DNA of 64,000 nucleotides from positions 1 to 64,000 of the forward strand of contig DASSPH010000061.1 in NCBI GenBank assembly GCA_035699745.1, in the 5' to 3' direction. The position numbers and the translations under genes are program-made. Below are positions 24,887 through 35,013 of this stretch, one piece after another. Numbering within the stretch: the stretch's first letter is position 1; each line of letters opens with the position of its first letter. This DNA is from Vicinamibacterales bacterium (lineage in GTDB: Bacteria > Acidobacteriota > Vicinamibacteria > Vicinamibacterales > 2-12-FULL-66-21). The notes beneath the pieces are model-generated. The model was given only the letters and a program-made list of their open reading frames with translations. It was not told where the DNA came from and searched no databases.

Positions 24887-24955
24887 GCAACTCACGGCCC
24901 GCGATTCATCTGCGCGTGCCGCCGCCGCGGCAACGCCGCGCTCTCGCCATTCTTT

Positions 24956-24973
24956 ACGGAATTCTTATTCCGT
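24956..24973 (+). promoter_or_regulatory. hairpin in the kup 5' region
   Basis: Perfect inverted repeat ACGGAAT-TCTT-ATTCCGT, AT-richer than its surroundings, about 65 bases upstream of the proposed kup start. It could be an operator or an mRNA leader stem. Confidence 0.35.
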
Positions 24974-25039
24974 TCCACGGTATCAATCAGGAGACCGTCC
25001 GCTCCCCTCGAGGCGCGGGCGAGCGCTCCTGGAGGCATC

Positions 25040-26917
25040 CTGCCAACCGTCCGACGCATTTCGCCACAGCTCTTTCCTCTCACACTCACCGCGATCGGCG
25101 TCGTCTACGGCGACATCGGGACGAGCCCGCTGTATGCGATGCGCGAGTGTTTCTTCGGATCCCACTCCGTGCCCCCCACGCAGGCCAACGTGCTCGGCGT
25201 CCTCTCGCTGATCATCTACTCGCTGCTCGTCGTCATCTCCGTCAAGTACATCGCCGTCGTCATGCGGGCCGACAACCAGGGGGAAGGCGGCATCCTCGCC
25301 CTGACCGCGCTCCTGCCGCGCGCTGCCGCCAACCCGAAGCGGTGGAGCGTGTTCGTCCTGATGGGCATCTTCGGCGCCGCGCTGCTGTACGGCGACGGCA
25401 TGATCACGCCGGCGATCACCGTCCTCGGCGCTGTCGAAGGACTGAAGGTCGCCACGCCGCTGTTCGAGCCGTACGTGGTTCCGATCGCCGTCGGCATATT
25501 GATCGGGGTGTTTGCGGTGCAGCGGCACGGCACGCATCGCATCGGCCGGCTGTTCGGGCCGATCATGGTGCTGTGGTTCGCCGTCATCGCGATGCTCGGC
25601 ATCCGCTGGCTCGTGCGTGAACCCGTGGTGCTGAGCGCTGTCGATCCACGCCATGCGGTGGCGTTCTTCCGTGAGCACGGCGGGCACGGATTCGCGGTGC
25701 TCGGCGCCGTGTTCCTCGTCGTGACCGGCGGGGAGGCGCTCTACGCCGACATGGGGCACTTCGGCAAACGGCCGATCCGCGTGGCCTGGTTCGGTCTGGT
25801 GCTGCCTGCGCTGCTGCTGAACTACTTCGGCCAGGGCGCGCTGCTGCTGCAGAATCCGCGCGCGGCCGAACAGCCGTTCTTCCTGCTGGCACCCGACTGG
25901 GCGCTGTTCCCGCTCGTCGGACTCGCGACGGCGGCAGCGATCATCGCCTCCCAGGCGCTGATTTCCGGCGCCTTCTCACTGACGCGGCAGGCCATTCAGC
26001 TCGGGTATGCGCCGCGTCTGGATATCGCGCACACGTCCTCGCACGAGATCGGCCAGGTGTACGTGCCGCAGGTCAACTGGGCCCTGATGCTCAGCACCAT
26101 CGCGATCGTGATCGCCTTCGGGTCGTCAACCGCGCTGGCCGCCGCCTACGGCATTGCCGTCACGCTGACGATGATCATCACCGCGATCCTGCTTCACGTC
26201 ATCGCGACGGAGCGATGGCGGTGGCCGGTGTGGATCGCCTTCACGGTGACCGGGATCTTCCTCAGCATCGACCTGGCGTTCTTTGGCGCCAACGCCCTCA
26301 AGATTGCGCACGGCGGCTGGCTGCCGCTGGCCATAGGCGGTGTGCTCTTCACGCTGATGACCACCTGGAAGACCGGGCGCCAGATCGTCGCACAGCGACT
26401 GACGGCGCGGGCCGTGCCGCTCGAGCAATTCCTGGCCACGGTGGCGGAGAGCCGCCCGGCTCGCGTCCCCGGAACCGCGGTGTTCATGACGGCGCAGCCG
26501 CGCGGCACGCCGCCGGCGCTCGCCCACAACTTGCGCTACAACAAGGTGCTGCATTCACGGGTGGTGACCTTGATGGTGGCAACGCAGCCGGTTCCTCATG
26601 TGCCGGCCAGCGAACAGATTGCCCTCCAGTCGCTCGGCCAGGGTGTCTTCGACCTCGTGGTGCAGTACGGCTTCATGGAAGACCCCGACGTCCCAGCCGC
26701 GCTCCGGCAGGCGAAGGCGCAGGGGCTCGAGCTCGACGACCAGGACGTCACCTACTTTCTGGGAAGAGAGACGCTGATTGTCAGCCGTGTTTCGGGTATG
26801 GCGACCTGGCGGGAACACCTGTTCGTGCTGATGGCCCGCAACGCGGTCCGGGCAACGGCCTTCTTCCGCCTGCCGCCGGAGCGCGTCGTCGAACTGGGCG
26901 TGCAGGTGGAGATCTGA
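25040..26917 (+). CDS. kup: Kup/Trk-type K+:H+ symporter
   Basis: 625 residues with about 12 transmembrane helices and a cytoplasmic C-terminal domain. The first helix carries the family signature LTAIGVVYGDIGTSPLYAMRECF; NQGEGGILAL and LLYGDGMITPAITVLGAVEGL follow. It imports potassium with protons and is the constitutive or low-pH system that complements Kdp. The signature begins upstream of the first ATG (25139), and no in-frame ATG, GTG or TTG exists before it. CTG 25040, preceded by GGAGG at 25031-25035, is therefore the best start and gives the usual family length. Next gene 49 bp downstream is the KdpD-type kinase. Confidence 0.92.
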   Translation: MPTVRRISPQLFPLTLTAIGVVYGDIGTSPLYAMRECFFGSHSVPPTQANVLGVLSLIIYSLLVVISVKYIAVVMRADNQGEGGILALTALLPRAAANPKRWSVFVLMGIFGAALLYGDGMITPAITVLGAVEGLKVATPLFEPYVVPIAVGILIGVFAVQRHGTHRIGRLFGPIMVLWFAVIAMLGIRWLVREPVVLSAVDPRHAVAFFREHGGHGFAVLGAVFLVVTGGEALYADMGHFGKRPIRVAWFGLVLPALLLNYFGQGALLLQNPRAAEQPFFLLAPDWALFPLVGLATAAAIIASQALISGAFSLTRQAIQLGYAPRLDIAHTSSHEIGQVYVPQVNWALMLSTIAIVIAFGSSTALAAAYGIAVTLTMIITAILLHVIATERWRWPVWIAFTVTGIFLSIDLAFFGANALKIAHGGWLPLAIGGVLFTLMTTWKTGRQIVAQRLTARAVPLEQFLATVAESRPARVPGTAVFMTAQPRGTPPALAHNLRYNKVLHSRVVTLMVATQPVPHVPASEQIALQSLGQGVFDLVVQYGFMEDPDVPAALRQAKAQGLELDDQDVTYFLGRETLIVSRVSGMATWREHLFVLMARNAVRATAFFRLPPERVVELGVQVEI

Positions 26918-26930
26918 CGGTTCCCTGGAT

Positions 26931-26959
26931 TTGACCCCGCGTTCCCGCCAGCGTATGTT
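26931..26959 (+). promoter_or_regulatory. sigma70-type promoter of the KdpD-type kinase gene
   Basis: TTGACC (26931-26936), 17-base spacer, TATGTT (26954-26959). Predicted transcription would begin at or next to GTG 26967, giving a leaderless mRNA. Confidence 0.6.
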
Positions 26960-26966
26960 CCGGGCC

Positions 26967-28481
26967 GTGCGGCGATGGCGGCACGATGCCTTCGTGAGTA
27001 CCGCGGCGCTCGTCGCCATCGCCGCGGTCGTCACCGTGCTGCGAACGGCGCAGCCCCATCCCAACCCCACCATCGCGGCGCTGCTCTTCCTGCTCATCGT
27101 CCTCATGGCGGCGACCGTCGCGCAGCTCCGCGTGTCGATCGCGATCGCCGTGGCAGCCATGCTCGCGTTCAACTTCTTCCTGCTGCCGCCGTTCTACACG
27201 CTCACCATCGCCGACCCGCAGAACTGGGTGGCGCTGTTCGTGTTCGTCGTGGTTGCGGTCATCGCCAGTCAGCTCTCCGCCGTTGCGCGACGCCGCGCAA
27301 CGGAAGCCGAGACCAGCAAGCAGGAAGTGACGCGCCTGTTCGATCTCAGCCGCGACATTCTGCTCACCACCGACAGCGGCCGCGCGGTCGCCGACGTCGC
27401 GCGCTACGTGGCGCTTCGGTTCGACGTGGACGCCGCCGCGATCTGCCTGCCCACCGACCACGGCTGGGAACTGCACCAGGGGGGCAGGAAGTCCGTGGAG
27501 CCATCGGCGCAGCAACTCGACGAGGCGCTCGCCCGGCTGCGCGGCCCGCTCGAATACGATGCACGTCGGCGCGCGTACGGCGGGCACATGCGGTTGGACC
27601 GGCCGGACGGCGCCCGCGTGACGCTGGTACCCTTGCGGCTGGGCACGAAACCGCTCGGCCTGCTCGCCGTCAGGTCCACCCACCTCGAAGTCGGCACGCT
27701 CGATGCGCTCGGCGGTGTCGTCGCCATCGCAATCGAGCGCGCGCACTTTCTCGCCGAGCGCAAGAAAGCGGAATTGGCGAGCCAGCGCGCCGATCTGGCG
27801 TCGGCCCTCCTGGCCTCGTTCAGCCATGACCTGCGCACGCCGGTCACCTCCGTCCGTGTGGCCGTCACCAACCTGCTGGACCCCGGCCTTCCGGCCGACG
27901 AGCGGCAGGGCCAGGGGCAGCTTGCGCTTCAGCAGCTGGACCGTCTGAACCGGCTGTTTGCCGACATTCTCGACATGGCCAGGATCGACGCGGCTGCGGT
28001 CAACCCCGAGCGCCAGTGGGTCTCGCCGGCGGACGTCGTCGATGCCGCCATCGCGCATGCCGGTCCAGCCCTGAGCGCACACACACTCCGCATCGACGCC
28101 GACAGTGAGCACGAAATCTCCATCGATCCCAGGCTGACGTCCACCGCCCTGGCGCACGTGCTCGAGAACGCCGTCCGGTATTCGCCCGCCGCGGCGCCAA
28201 TCGCCGTGCGCGCCTGGACCGACGATGACGGTGCCCACTTTGCGGTCCGCGATCATGGCCCTGGTCTTGACGCGTCCGACCTCGATCACGTGTTCGAGCC
28301 GTTCTACCGGAGCCCGAAGACGCGGCACGCCACCGGCACCGGTCTGGGTCTGGCGATCACGCGCGGTCTGCTCGCCGCAGAGGGTGGCCGCATCTGGTGC
28401 GAGAACGCCCTGGACGGTGGAGCGCAGTTTACGATTGCCGTGCCCGCGCCGGTGCGCGCCGCCAGCGCACCGGTCTCATAG
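26967..28481 (+). CDS. KdpD C-terminal-type sensor histidine kinase (DUF4118-GAF-HisKA-HATPase)
   Basis: 504 residues, corresponding to the C-terminal half of KdpD. Four closely spaced helices of a DUF4118 domain (AALLFLLIVLMAATVAQLRV, FNFFLLPPFYTLTI) are followed by a GAF-like domain, the H-box LASFSHDLRTPVTSVRV with His287, N-box HVLENAVRYSP, and G boxes DHGPGLD and GTGLGLAITRG. The usual N-terminal KdpD ATP-binding and USP domains are absent and are encoded separately at 33880. GTG 26967 is chosen over TTG 26931 and ATG 26955 because these overlap the promoter. It should phosphorylate KdpE, encoded 2 bp downstream. Confidence 0.87.
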   Translation: MRRWRHDAFVSTAALVAIAAVVTVLRTAQPHPNPTIAALLFLLIVLMAATVAQLRVSIAIAVAAMLAFNFFLLPPFYTLTIADPQNWVALFVFVVVAVIASQLSAVARRRATEAETSKQEVTRLFDLSRDILLTTDSGRAVADVARYVALRFDVDAAAICLPTDHGWELHQGGRKSVEPSAQQLDEALARLRGPLEYDARRRAYGGHMRLDRPDGARVTLVPLRLGTKPLGLLAVRSTHLEVGTLDALGGVVAIAIERAHFLAERKKAELASQRADLASALLASFSHDLRTPVTSVRVAVTNLLDPGLPADERQGQGQLALQQLDRLNRLFADILDMARIDAAAVNPERQWVSPADVVDAAIAHAGPALSAHTLRIDADSEHEISIDPRLTSTALAHVLENAVRYSPAAAPIAVRAWTDDDGAHFAVRDHGPGLDASDLDHVFEPFYRSPKTRHATGTGLGLAITRGLLAAEGGRIWCENALDGGAQFTIAVPAPVRAASAPVS

Positions 28482-28483
28482 CC

Positions 28484-29170
28484 ATGCCCTCACGCGTGCT
28501 GATCGTGGACGATGAGCCGGCGATTCTGGCCACCACCGCCCCCCTCCTGCGTGCGCGCGGCTACGAGGTATCCACGGCCATGTCGGCGAAAGCGTGCCTC
28601 GAGAGCGTCGAGCGGCTCGAGCCGGACTTGATCATCCTCGATCTCGGCTTGCCGGACCTCGATGGCGTCGAGGTCTGCCGGCTGCTGCGTGACGGACGGT
28701 CGATGCCGATCATCGTGCTCTCCGCTCGCGGCGGCGAGCGCGACAAGGTCGGCGCGCTGGATGCGGGGGCCGATGACTACGTCACCAAGCCGTTCGGCGC
28801 CGAGGAGCTCCTGGCGCGCATTCGCGTGGCCTTGCGCCGGGTGGAGTCGGCTCCCTCGAGCCAGGGCCTGCTCGTCCGCGGTGAGCTGGTGATCGATCGC
28901 GATCGTCACACGGTCACGCGCGCGGGGGACAAGCTGCGGCTGACACCCAAGGAGTTCGAGCTGCTGGTGTTCCTGGCGCAGCACCCCGGCCGGGTCATGA
29001 CGCATCGAGCCATTCTCAAGGCGATCTGGGGCCCGCACGCCGTCGATCAGCCCGAGCACCTCCGCGTCCTGCTCGGATCACTTCGAAAGAAGCTCGAGCG
29101 GGATCCCTCTCGTCCACGCTACATCGTGACCGAGCCCTGGGTCGGCTATCGTTTCGCCGATCCCGAGTAG
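28484..29170 (+). CDS. kdpE: KdpE response regulator
   Basis: 228 residues, OmpR family. Receiver with VDDE, Asp53 in [19 protein letters not shown] and VTKPFG; winged helix with [18 protein letters not shown], and [17 protein letters not shown]. The closing [13 protein letters not shown] is typical of KdpE. It activates the kdpFABC promoter under potassium limitation. ATG 28484 lies 2 bp after the kinase stop. Its last 25 bases overlap the 3' end of the convergent kdpC gene. Confidence 0.92.
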
Positions 29171-29790
29171 CGCTCGTCGAGCGCCAGATTCAGCAGCAGA
29201 ACGTTCACCCGCGGCTCCCCCAGCACGCCAAACTGCCGCGGCTCCGTCAGCTCCGCGACGAGCCGCCTGATCCCGGCCTCGCTGACGCCCCGGTCGCGCG
29301 CCACACGCGGTACCTGGAACTCAGCCGCCGCAGGTGACAGGTGCGGATCGAGACCGGATGCCGATGCCGTCACCAGTTCGATCGGCACCGCCGCTCCGGG
29401 ATTGGCGGCCTGGAGCCGATCCCGCTCGGCCGCCACTCTCGCGACCAGCGCCGCGCTCGTCGGACCGAGGTTCGAACCGCCCGACGCCGCCGCATCGTAG
29501 CCGTCTCCCGCCGCCGATGGACGCGGCCAGAAATAGCCCGGGCCAGAGAAGCGCTGCCCGATGAGCGCCGACCCGACCACGACCCCGTGCCGGTCGATCA
29601 ACGATCCGTTCGCCCGCGCCGGAAACAACGCCTGGGCGGCCGCGGTGACCAGCAGCGGGTAGGCGAGCCCGCACACGAGCGTCGTCGCCACCGTGAAGGC
29701 CATCGCGACATAGAGCCGCCGCACCACGCCGATCGTGATCCCGGCAGCGGCGGTAATCCCCGAGGCAATCTCGAAACCGATGTTCGACAT
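29146..29790 (-). CDS. kdpC: K+-transporting ATPase subunit C
   Basis: 214 residues. One N-terminal helix ([22 protein letters not shown]) and a periplasmic domain with [52 protein letters not shown], and [11 protein letters not shown], all family signatures. KdpC stabilises the KdpAB complex and aids nucleotide affinity. The N-terminus is about 25 residues longer than in E. coli KdpC. Starts 4 bp after kdpB. Confidence 0.95.
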
Positions 29791-29794
29791 GACG

Positions 29795-31840
29795 TCACCC
29801 CAGTCCGAGCGCGGCGATCAGGACGTCGATGGCCTTGATGCCGACGAACGGCGCGACCAGGCCGCCCACGCCATAGACCAGCAGGTTGCGGCGCAACAGG
29901 CCCTCGGCGCCCTGCGGCCGATACGGGATCCCCTTCAGCGCTAGAGGCACCAGACAGACGATGACCACCGCATTGAAGATGACCGCGGACAGAATCGCCG
30001 ATTGCGGCGAGCGCAGACCCATGACGTTGAGGGCGGCGAGCCCGGGGAACGCGGTCAGGAACATGGCCGGGATGATCGCAAAGTACTTGGCTACGTCATT
30101 CGCGATCGAGAACGTGGTGAGCGCACCGCGCGTAATGAGCAGCTGCTTGCCGACTTCGACGACTTCGATGAGCTTCGTCGGGTTCGAGTCGAGGTCGACC
30201 ATGTTGCCGGCCTCTTTCGCCGCCTGCGTCCCGGTGTTCATCGCCACCCCGACATCCGCCTGCGCCAGCGCGGGAGCGTCGTTGGTGCCGTCGCCAGTCA
30301 TCGCGACGAGTTTCCCCTGCGCCTGCTCGCGCTTGATCAGCTCCAGCTTCGCCTCGGGCGTCGCTTCGGCGAGAAAGTCGTCGACGCCGGCTTCTGCCGC
30401 GATTGCCGCGGCGGTCAGGGGATTGTCCCCCGTGACCATGACGGTGCGGATGCCCATGGCCCGCAGGTGGGCGAACCGTTCGCGCATGCCGCCCTTCACC
30501 ACGTCTTTCAGGTGCACCACGCCGAGCGCCTGCGCGTTCTCTGCCACGACGAGCGGCGTCCCCCCGGATCGCGCGACGCGCTGCACGATGGTACGCAGCG
30601 CGTCCGGGACGGCGCCGCCACGCTGGGCGACATACCGCTCGATCGCGTCCGCCGCGCCTTTGCGAATATCGCGCCCGTCCACCTCGATGCCCGACATCCG
30701 GGTGGTCGCCGAGAACGGAATGAAGGTGGCTCGCTGCGGCGACAACTCGCGCTGGCGCAGACCGTAGCGCTCCTTGGCGAGCACGACGATGGAGCGGCCC
30801 TCGGGAGTTTCGTCGGCGAGCGACGCCAGCTGCGCCGCATCCGCGAGTTGCCGATCGGTCCGCCCCGGAACAGGAACGAACTCGGCCGCCTGACGGTTCC
30901 CGAGCGTGATGGTCCCCGTCTTGTCCAGCAGCAGCGTGTGGACGTCGCCGGCGGCTTCCACGGCCCGCCCCGACATCGCGAGGACATTGTGCTGCACCAT
31001 GCGGTCCATGCCGGCGATGCCGATCGCGGAGAGCAGTCCTCCAATCGTCGTCGGGATGAGGCAGACCAGCAGCGACACCAGCACGAAGACGCTCTGCGGC
31101 GCGTTCGAGTAGATCGCCAGCGGTTCGAGCGTGACGACTGCCACCAGGAAGACGATCGTGAGGCCGGACAGCAGGATGTTCAGCGCGATCTCGTTCGGCG
31201 TCTTCTGGCGCGCGGCGCCTTCGACGAGCGCGATCATGCGATCGAGAAAGGTCTCCCCCGGATTGGCGGTGATCCGGACCTTGATCCAGTCCGACAGCAC
31301 CCGCGTCCCGCCGGTCACCGCTGAGCGGTCGCCGCCCGCCTCGCGGATCACCGGAGCCGATTCGCCGGTGATCGCCGATTCGTCCACCGAGGCCACGCCC
31401 TCGACAATCTCGCCGTCGCCGGGGATCACCTCGCCTGCCGAGACCATCACCAGGTCCCCGCGCAGCAGCCGTGCCGCAGGGACCCGCTCGATGGCGTTGC
31501 CATAGACCACGCGATTGGCGAGGGTATCCGTCCTGGCGCGGCGGAGCGTGTCGGCCTGCGCCTTGCCGCGTCCCTCCGCCATCGCTTCCGCGAAGTTCGC
31601 AAACAGCACGGTCAGCCATAGCCACGCAACGATCTGCCCCTCGAACAGGAGGCCGCCGCGCCCGAGCGCCACATCGACGACGAACCGGCCGCTCACCAGC
31701 ACCGCGCCGACTTCCACGACGAACATCACCGGGGTGCGGGCCATCGTTGCCGGATTGAGCTTCCACAGCGCCGCGACGAGGGCGCCGCGAACGAGCCTCG
31801 GATCGAATCTCGACGCCGCTGACGAGCGCGTGCCTGACAC
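29795..31840 (-). CDS. kdpB: K+-transporting P-type ATPase subunit B
   Basis: 681 residues. Catalytic ATPase of the Kdp pump. The phosphorylation motif is [14 protein letters not shown], the actuator motif is [11 protein letters not shown], and the hinge/P-domain motifs are [21 protein letters not shown] and [10 protein letters not shown]. Hydrolysis drives inward K+ transport through KdpA. GTG start 4 bp after the kdpA stop. Confidence 0.97.
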
Positions 31841-31844
31841 GGCT

Positions 31845-33545
<1,701 letters not shown>

Positions 33546-33555
33546 GCCAGCACCG

Positions 33556-33645
33556 TCAGAAACGTTCGGGATACAGCAGCGCCGCGAGCAGATAGATCAG
33601 CAACCCGACGGCGATCAGCAGTCCGATGAAGAGCTCGCCGGTCAT
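33556..33645 (-). CDS. kdpF: KdpF small subunit
   Basis: 29 residues, one transmembrane helix (FIGLLIAVGLLIYLLAALL) and the typical ending YPERF. It is a lipid-like stabiliser of the KdpABC complex. It sits directly before kdpA with the expected length, spacing and sequence. Confidence 0.9.
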   Translation of the reverse strand: MTGELFIGLLIAVGLLIYLLAALLYPERF

Positions 33646-33652
33646 GGGCGGC

Positions 33653-33739
33653 TCACCTGAGGCGCTCGCAGCCGGAGACGTACGCGGCGGCGGCGAGGAA
33701 GAACAGCAGTGTGATCGCGATGAACGCCGCGTCGCCCAT
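33653..33739 (-). CDS. 28-residue single-pass peptide at the head of the kdp operon
   Basis: Sequence pattern: GDAAFIAITLLFFLAAAAYV then SGCERLR. One transmembrane helix with a short Cys-containing basic tail. It ends 7 bp before kdpF in the same direction. I recall similar short frames in front of kdpF in other high-GC bacteria, but no function is established. It may be a second small Kdp accessory subunit. Confidence 0.6.
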   Translation of the reverse strand: MGDAAFIAITLLFFLAAAAYVSGCERLR

Positions 33740-33801
33740 TACCAGATCCCCTTCCTGGTGCCACGCACGATATCCATGGCTTCAGCATCGGCCCGGTGAC
33801 C

Positions 33802-33837
33802 GTAACGGAGCGATCAAAACTCCGTAAAAACTCCGTT
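33802..33837. promoter_or_regulatory. candidate KdpE operator between divergent kdp units
   Basis: AAAACTCCGTA and AAAACTCCGTT form a perfect 11-bp tandem repeat at 33816-33837 (10 of 11 bases identical). An inverted copy of the core, GTAACGGAG, lies at 33802-33810. Tandem repeats at 11-bp spacing on one DNA face are typical of OmpR-family sites. It lies about 65-100 bp upstream of the small kdp gene and 29 bp upstream of the -10 of the sensor gene. Confidence 0.6.
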
Positions 33838-33879
33838 AAGACCGTGCGATCGATCAGGCCGGCCCGTACGATGGCGATC

Positions 33880-35013
33880 GTGGCCGAGGATCGCCCCACT
33901 CCTGAGCAACTGCTCGCGCGCATGCAGCACGCGGAACGGGCGCGGCTGCGGATCTACATCGGGGCGGCGCCTGGTGTCGGCAAGACGTACGCGCTCCTGC
34001 GCGATGCGCACCGGGAGCGGCGGCAGGGGGTCGACGTCGTGATCGGGCTGGTGGAGACGTACGGGCGCGCTGAAACAGAGGCGCAGCTCCGCGATCTGGA
34101 GGTCGTTCCCAGGCGCGCGGTCCCCTACCGCGGCGTCGTCCTGGAGGAAATGGATCTCGACGCCATTCTCGCCCGCCGCCCCGAGCTGTGCGTCGTCGAC
34201 GAGCTCGCGCACAGCAACGCCGCCGGCGGCCGGCACGAGAAGCGCTACCAGGACGTGATCGAGCTGCTCGATCACGGCATCGGCGTGCTCACCGCGGTCA
34301 ACATTCAGCATCTCGAAACGCTGAACGACGCCGTCGGGCGCGTCACCGGCATCCGGGTCCGCGAAACCGTGCCCGACACGTTTCTCGCGCGAGCCGACGA
34401 AGTCGTCAACGTGGATATCACGGTCGAGGAGTTGCGCAGCCGGCTGCGCCAAGGCAAGGTCTACAAGCCTGAGCAGGTCGAGCAGGCGCTCACCCACTTC
34501 TTCACCGAAGGGAATCTCTCGACCCTGCGCGAGCTTGCCTTGCGTGCGGTGGCCGATGAAGTGGGTGCGAAAGCGGCCTCCTACCGGCAGCGCGAAGGCC
34601 TGGAGCCCGGGTTGATCCCCGAACGGGTGATGGTCTGCACCAGTTCCGCGGCGCAGGCGCCCCGCGTGCTGCGGACCGGCGCCCGCATCGCCGGCAGACT
34701 GGGTGCACGGTGGTACGCCGTCTATGTCGAGACACCCCGGGAGGCGCCGGGCCACATCGAGCCGGCGGATCGTGAAGCGCTGGCACGAAACCTGGCGCTG
34801 GCCGAGAGTCTCGGCGCGACCGTCGTCCGGGTCAAGGCGGATCGGCCGGCTGACGGCTTGATTGCGTTCGCCAAGCGCGAGGGGATCACGCACGTCATCT
34901 TCGGCCAGTCGGCGCGCTCGCGCCTCGAGATCCTCTGGAAAGGGTCGACCCTGAACCGGTTTCTCGAAGAGGTGCGCGACGCCGCGGTCCAGGTCGTGCC
35001 GTTCGACGCATAG
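33880..35013 (+). CDS. KdpD N-terminal sensor protein with USP domain (kinase-less)
   Basis: 377 residues equivalent to the cytoplasmic N-terminal half of KdpD. ATP-binding part: GAAPGVGKTYALL (Walker A), DVVIGLVETYGRAET, CVVDELAHSN (Walker B), HGIGVLTAVNIQHLETLND, and the FFTEGNLSTLRELALR end. A universal-stress-protein-like domain follows (about residue 245 on) and ends with THVIFGQSARSR, VVPFDA. There are no membrane helices and no kinase domain. It probably controls the separate kinase at 26967. GTG 33880 is chosen because a -10-like TACGAT (33867-33872) overlaps the in-frame ATG 33871. Confidence 0.85.
   Translation: MAEDRPTPEQLLARMQHAERARLRIYIGAAPGVGKTYALLRDAHRERRQGVDVVIGLVETYGRAETEAQLRDLEVVPRRAVPYRGVVLEEMDLDAILARRPELCVVDELAHSNAAGGRHEKRYQDVIELLDHGIGVLTAVNIQHLETLNDAVGRVTGIRVRETVPDTFLARADEVVNVDITVEELRSRLRQGKVYKPEQVEQALTHFFTEGNLSTLRELALRAVADEVGAKAASYRQREGLEPGLIPERVMVCTSSAAQAPRVLRTGARIAGRLGARWYAVYVETPREAPGHIEPADREALARNLALAESLGATVVRVKADRPADGLIAFAKREGITHVIFGQSARSRLEILWKGSTLNRFLEEVRDAAVQVVPFDA

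Follow-up and report, generated by a model that had tools for sequence, protein, structure and literature searches.

A 44-bp array of four direct 11-bp boxes upstream of kdpF, at positions 33798-33841 of the window (the whole stretch of 64,000 nucleotides analysed here), is a candidate four-half-site operator that, judged from sequence, very probably serves the KdpE response regulator encoded at 28484-29170. The array is best read from 33841 to 33798 on the minus strand, the kdpF-sense strand, as TCTTAACGGAG, TTTTTACGGAG, TTTTGATCGCT and CCGTTACGGTC, and is most likely a control site of an ordinary kind, extended here to four boxes. This proposal is based on the sequence itself and its phasing, on the conservation of the array at fixed distances from both -10 elements, and on covariation with KdpE in relatives. 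Under potassium shortage, phosphorylated KdpE would line up on the 11-bp boxes, the last of which ends 8 bp before the kdpF -10; the array thus stands at the place of a -35 and may recruit RNA polymerase to the operon formed by a small ORF and kdpFABC. An earlier note had placed a KdpE operator, phased at 11 bp, between the divergent kdp genes. This layout was found at the kdp loci of most relatives examined, but the extent of the operator has been revised to four boxes and 44 bp.

Boxes 1 and 2, scored with a half-site matrix built from relatives, form a pair of direct TTTA-type half-sites spaced by 11 bp and read in the kdpF direction, TTAACG and TTTACG, the first of which has A instead of T at base 3 (TTAA). 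The sequence, coordinates and 11-bp period of the tandem repeat first noticed here are correct, but its copies (AAAACTCCGTA at 33816-33826 and AAAACTCCGTT at 33827-33837) are identical at 10/11 positions and therefore not strictly perfect, as had been claimed. When the 140-bp gap was dinucleotide-shuffled 5000 times, such tandems (at least 10/11 matches) appeared in 5 shuffles, while shuffled versions of the 64-kb window contained 2.9 start positions on average (maximum 12 in 100 shuffles) and the real window has 7, in three places. With a few expected per 64 kb, the repeat by itself is only mildly unusual, and it is conservation that lifts it above chance. The inverted copy described next to it does exist, as perfect 8-bp arms 20 nt apart (TAACGGAG at 33803-33810 and CTCCGTTA at 33831-33838), but is better read as a direct fourth box: CCGTTACGG is close to a palindrome, so that box 4, viewed on the opposite strand, gives the inverted copy.

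Table 1. Features of the window related to the candidate KdpE operator.
Feature	Position	Strand	Basis or remark
Box 1, TCTTAACGGAG	33831..33841	-	Leave-window-out matrix; half-site score 9.9 bits
Box 2, TTTTTACGGAG	33820..33830	-	Leave-window-out matrix; half-site score 13.6 bits
Box 3, TTTTGATCGCT	33809..33819	-	Leave-window-out matrix; degenerate, as in relatives
Box 4, CCGTTACGGTC	33798..33808	-	Leave-window-out matrix and relatives; earlier "inverted copy" read as a direct copy
Candidate kdpFABC -10, GATGCT	33784..33789	-	Predicted from relatives' layout; 8 nt after box 4
Small hydrophobic ORF, MGDAAFIAITLLFFLAAAAYVSGCERLR	33653..33739	-	First gene of the kdp operon; no match in NCBIfam
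kdpF	33556..33645	-	TIGR02115, 38.7 bits (cut-off 26.85)
kdpA	31845..33545	-	Homology
kdpB	29795..31840	-	Homology
kdpC	29146..29790	-	Homology
kdpD-N (KdpD sensor and Usp domains, no kinase)	33880..35013	+	GTG start by homology
kdpD-N -10, TACGAT	33867..33872	+	25 bp from box 1; 7 nt before GTG
KdpE response regulator, proposed binder	28484..29170	+	Best PDB match E. coli KdpE, 4kny
KdpD kinase half (DUF4118, HisKA, HATPase)	26931..28481	+	KdpD model positions 392-882
Candidate two-box KdpE site, TCTTTACGGAA and TTCTTATTCCG	24951..24972	+	Upstream of kup-kinase-kdpE; 44-mer matrix 13.8 bits, second in window

Relatives were searched with kdpD-N (60 relatives, 20 with a match) and with KdpA (162 genomes of the order, 35 with a match), and their kdp upstream regions were found to carry 11-bp phased boxes. 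A 44-bp matrix, derived from 12 sites of 11 genomes with the window excluded, ranks the minus-strand site 33841-33798 first on both strands of the 64 kb with 21.3 bits, followed by 13.8 bits at 24951; 10 Mb of random sequence contains a single position with at least 13.8 bits and none with 17. Likewise, when the 6.3-Mb genome that contains the site is scanned with a profile of 31 sites that excludes the window, this site comes out on top (E 0.03 at 17.4 bits, against E 0.3 for the runner-up), a score that falls short of the E 0.01 cut of the order-wide profile run. Footprinting of kdp upstream regions, the check suggested in the earlier note, thus revealed the box array in most relatives: when the retrieved surroundings of kdp or kinase-kdpE genes are scored, 31 of the 35 kdpA-bearing genomes of the order, and 20/24 of those outside matrix training, have a site that reaches 16 bits. 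No site of at least 16 bits was found in the four others, G060 (3.0), G022 (6.8), G018 (14.1) and G101 (2.2, in a 3-kb fragment). Strong profile matches (E at most 1e-5) were detected in 25/35 kdpA-bearing versus 4/127 other genomes, a contrast that is largely circular because 24 of the 35 gave profile sites; among the 11 that gave none, three have strong matches, and no weight is placed on the Fisher value of the contrast. One of the 32 relatives' sites, that of G052, was dropped before one of the counts. Two loci (L036 3587-3674 in G051 and L062 4232-5130 in G054) contain several W-type four-box sites (see below) in both orientations, suggesting that KdpE controls more genes there. By eye, a second kdp type (L047, L048, L050 and L077), with the KdpE helix DYLRVF or DYLRVV, displays TAACG, TAATGAC and TTATGAC words in 11-bp steps.

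Both predicted promoters flanking the array have characteristic distances to it. In 31/32 relatives' sites, a TAnnnT motif, which played no part in choosing these sites, begins 6-9 nt after box 4 (background 0.4 percent); the window's GATGCT is without its first T. Downstream, the genes follow on the minus strand in the order small hydrophobic ORF, kdpF, kdpA, kdpB and kdpC. Similar ORFs ending in ...C.RL or C.RV were seen by eye ahead of kdpF in many relatives, and a tblastn search of plasmids for a KdpF-like peptide returned no match. On the other side, the genes are indeed divergent, as noted earlier, but the sensor is only the N-terminal half of KdpD; its architecture fits NF038185, a KdpD-like non-kinase potassium sensor, but its score of 417 bits lies below the curated cut-off, 550. 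The claim that the sensor promoter has the -10 TACGAT and no -35 holds: the hexamer 17 bp upstream is GTGCGA, a sigma-70 scan of 33640-33960 found no promoter pair, and the six genomes in which kdpD-N faces the operator (G000, G036, G056, G028, G114 and G047) share one geometry, with box 1, 24-26 bp, TAnnnT, 5-7 nt and the start codon. This geometry supports GTG 33880 as the predicted start of kdpD-N and suggests a leaderless transcript, which would probably be activated by the same operator, from the box 1 side.

The proposed regulator is encoded with the kinase half of a split KdpD about 5-7 kb from the operator, behind kup, in a kup-kinase-kdpE operon that meets kdpC end to end. The kinase half scores below the whole-length cut-off of the KdpD model. 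Alignment with 4kny indicates that the DNA-contact residues R193, R200 and T215 of E. coli KdpE are all kept in the window KdpE, R193 as R194 and T215 as the wing T. Ahead of kup, the two-box sequence at 24951-24972 is a weak candidate for a second KdpE site, a reading that its letters and position tip slightly in its favour. The candidate -10 TATCAA (24981-24986) lies 8 nt after it, in the same phase, yet the poorer of the two halves of the site has 3.2 bits, less than the 3.8 found at two further positions of the window in the same pair test, and the profile does not list it. A kup gene is present beside kinase-KdpE in four of the 10 regions compared (window, G036, G125 and G114), all with half-site pairs between or near kup and kinase-KdpE. 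In G036 (L230 5737-6051, minus strand) and G125 (L114 5046-5507, plus strand), the KdpE-type site and kup are separated by a small ORF that apparently encodes a membrane protein. Within 24998-25139 of the window, no in-frame ATG, GTG or TTG precedes the conserved GVVYGDIGTSPLYAM stretch of kup, the first being ATG 25139 within that stretch, and GGAGG directly precedes an ATCCTG; kup may thus begin with a rare start codon or contain a sequence error.

Comparison with known systems places the array among KdpE sites. In E. coli, the half-sites S1 (TTTATA) and S2 (TTTACA) are separated by 5 bp, KdpE covers -72 to -50, and binding is weakened by single changes in the shared TTTA and lost when two of its bases are changed (PMC3264566). 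Read on the kdpF strand, TTAACG/TTTACG and TTTATA/TTTACA are of the same kind, namely direct half-sites with a TTTA core and an 11-bp period in the kdpF-sense direction, so that the difference from the T-rich E. coli site claimed earlier is largely an effect of strand. As far as the E. coli site is described in that source, it differs from the window in having two half-sites located farther upstream, whereas the window has four boxes extending to 8 bp before the -10, and a divergent kdpD-N promoter. The 22-bp site of M. smegmatis, called dissimilar from other KdpE sites in the available text of its authors (PMC5401905), contains on its reverse complement CTTGATGG and CTTTACGG 11 bp apart, the word of window boxes 1 and 2; CCTTGATGGTT scores 6.5 bits by the half-site matrix, and the other half is cut by the end of the 22-mer. 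Unlike the window, this site has two half-sites, and KdpE is described there as not binding the kdpDE promoter. A split kdpD is known from Deinococcus radiodurans, where, like in the window, the N-terminal half of KdpD is apart from the kinase and the regulator, and the regulator binds between structural and signalling genes, as proposed here; however, kdpBAC and kdpD-N form one operon, and the available text describes the 38-bp site only as T-rich (PMC5716572). Sinorhizobium fredii KdpE binds the kdpFABC promoter, consistent with the window proposal, but is reported in the part seen of PMC9239096 not to bind kup, in contrast to the candidate site before kup in the window. Among the literature matches listed, which leave most subscription papers uncovered, no paper on KdpE sites of this bacterial group was found.

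Several other explanations deserve consideration. It is very improbable that the tandem is a functionless chance repeat, as both leave-out models rank the site first, exactly at the kdp promoter, and relatives have the same layout in the same place, even if 64 kb should contain a few such tandems by chance and the genome-wide E of 0.03 is modest. Nor is there much to be said for the inverted arms forming an RNA hairpin or serving as a two-fold operator, which we regard as hardly conceivable despite their perfect 8-bp match at a distance of 20 nt: the arm is missing from all 32 relatives' sites, the arms lie upstream of both predicted starts, and no terminator-like site was found. Inverted-repeat and hairpin readings were dropped on the first two of these grounds. 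A more serious possibility, although one we consider somewhat doubtful, is that KdpE uses the boxes for kdpFABC alone, next to a constitutive kdpD-N promoter. The boxes are read in the kdpF direction, and the M. smegmatis KdpE, which according to the accessible part of PMC5401905 ignores its own kdpDE promoter, indicates that KdpE does not control the divergent gene everywhere; against this stand the distance from box 1 to the kdpD-N -10, fixed at 24-26 bp in six genomes, and the missing -35 of this promoter.

The boxes might also be bound by another regulator of the OmpR/PhoB family. Direct repeats of 11 bp are typical of the entire family, the genomes of the order encode many such regulators, and W-like arrays are also present in two genomes without a kdpA match, G031 and G145. 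This reading is nonetheless unlikely, since the word matches the E. coli KdpE half-sites and covaries with a KdpE recognition residue, and several strong sites away from kdpA adjoin a kinase-KdpE pair (G075, G062, G070, G037 and G104). A Pho box, with direct repeats of TGTCA(T/C), was rejected: the PhoB half-site word TGTCA, as given in the part consulted of PMC3264566, is absent from the 44-mer. The arrays of G031 (L110, C3, 4653-4696) and G145 (L115, 4147-4190) comprise four boxes with TCTTCAGGAAC repeated, and tblastn with the window kdp proteins found none near them. A contig end of G039 (L109, C29, 17-148), a genome also without a kdpA match, bears a long W-type half-site array in which near-perfect 11-bp copies of TCTTCAGGGGC follow one another. 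The KdpE reading gains further support from 51 named loci in other phyla, where the spacing of half-site pairs upstream of kdpA has its peak at 11 on the kdpF strand (17/51, with a mean of 3.4 at other spacings and 2/51 on the opposite strand), and 9 of 27 Acidobacteriota loci have this spacing. A control in kdpA coding DNA displayed no peak at 11 (4/78) but 13/78 at spacing 21, so single pairs at threshold 4 mean little and only the peak counts. Two of the 80 named loci had too little upstream DNA; of the remaining 78, the 25 that were anchored on pairs had an additional half-site scoring 4 bits or more in 16 percent of cases at each of +32, +33, +43 and +44, and in 0-8 percent elsewhere outside the anchored pair.

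An initial pattern, in which KdpE with R at the R193-equivalent position (R-type) occurs beside TTTA(C/T)G and KdpE with W (W-type) beside TT(C/T)AGG, led to nine predictions noted beforehand, all of which came out as predicted. Base 5 of boxes 1 and 2 is a pyrimidine in 22/22 cases for R and G in 60/60 for W (41 sites, 32 genomes), a tabulation that leaves aside the R-type sites of G119, G120 and G125 and the second kdp type of G060, G022 and G018; box 4 is less strict at this base (8/11 for R, 28/30 for W). The T215-equivalent residue is T in 16/16 R-type proteins and S in 22/23 W-type proteins, the other being N. Among the 80 named KdpA loci, the nearest of which belong to Acidobacteriota MAGs, 58 have a KdpE match, comprising 56 R, one W (L204) and one H. 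In the tree, W forms one clade (support 93/96); the covariation is thus a single evolutionary event, in which T215 changed along with W. Protein and DNA word therefore appear to have changed together in relatives. Whether KdpE of the order has switched its DNA specificity, from R to W at the R193 equivalent (with T215 replaced by S, once N) and from TTTA(C/T)G to TT(C/T)AGG, with the window keeping the ancestral pair and KdpE of its lineage also controlling kup, is in our judgement evenly balanced on these comparisons.

The array brings KdpE sites described as unlike each other, T-rich in E. coli and A-rich in M. smegmatis, under one half-site word with an 11-bp period, and presents an extended four-box form next to a predicted leaderless divergent promoter. 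The part worth following is the proposed natural KdpE specificity switch in relatives. The natural covariation makes testable a question that PMC3264566, as far as it can be consulted, does not settle, namely whether R193 itself reads a base or has an indirect effect. If the switch is real, R193 would be the reader of base 5, and these genomes would constitute a ready-made switch set.
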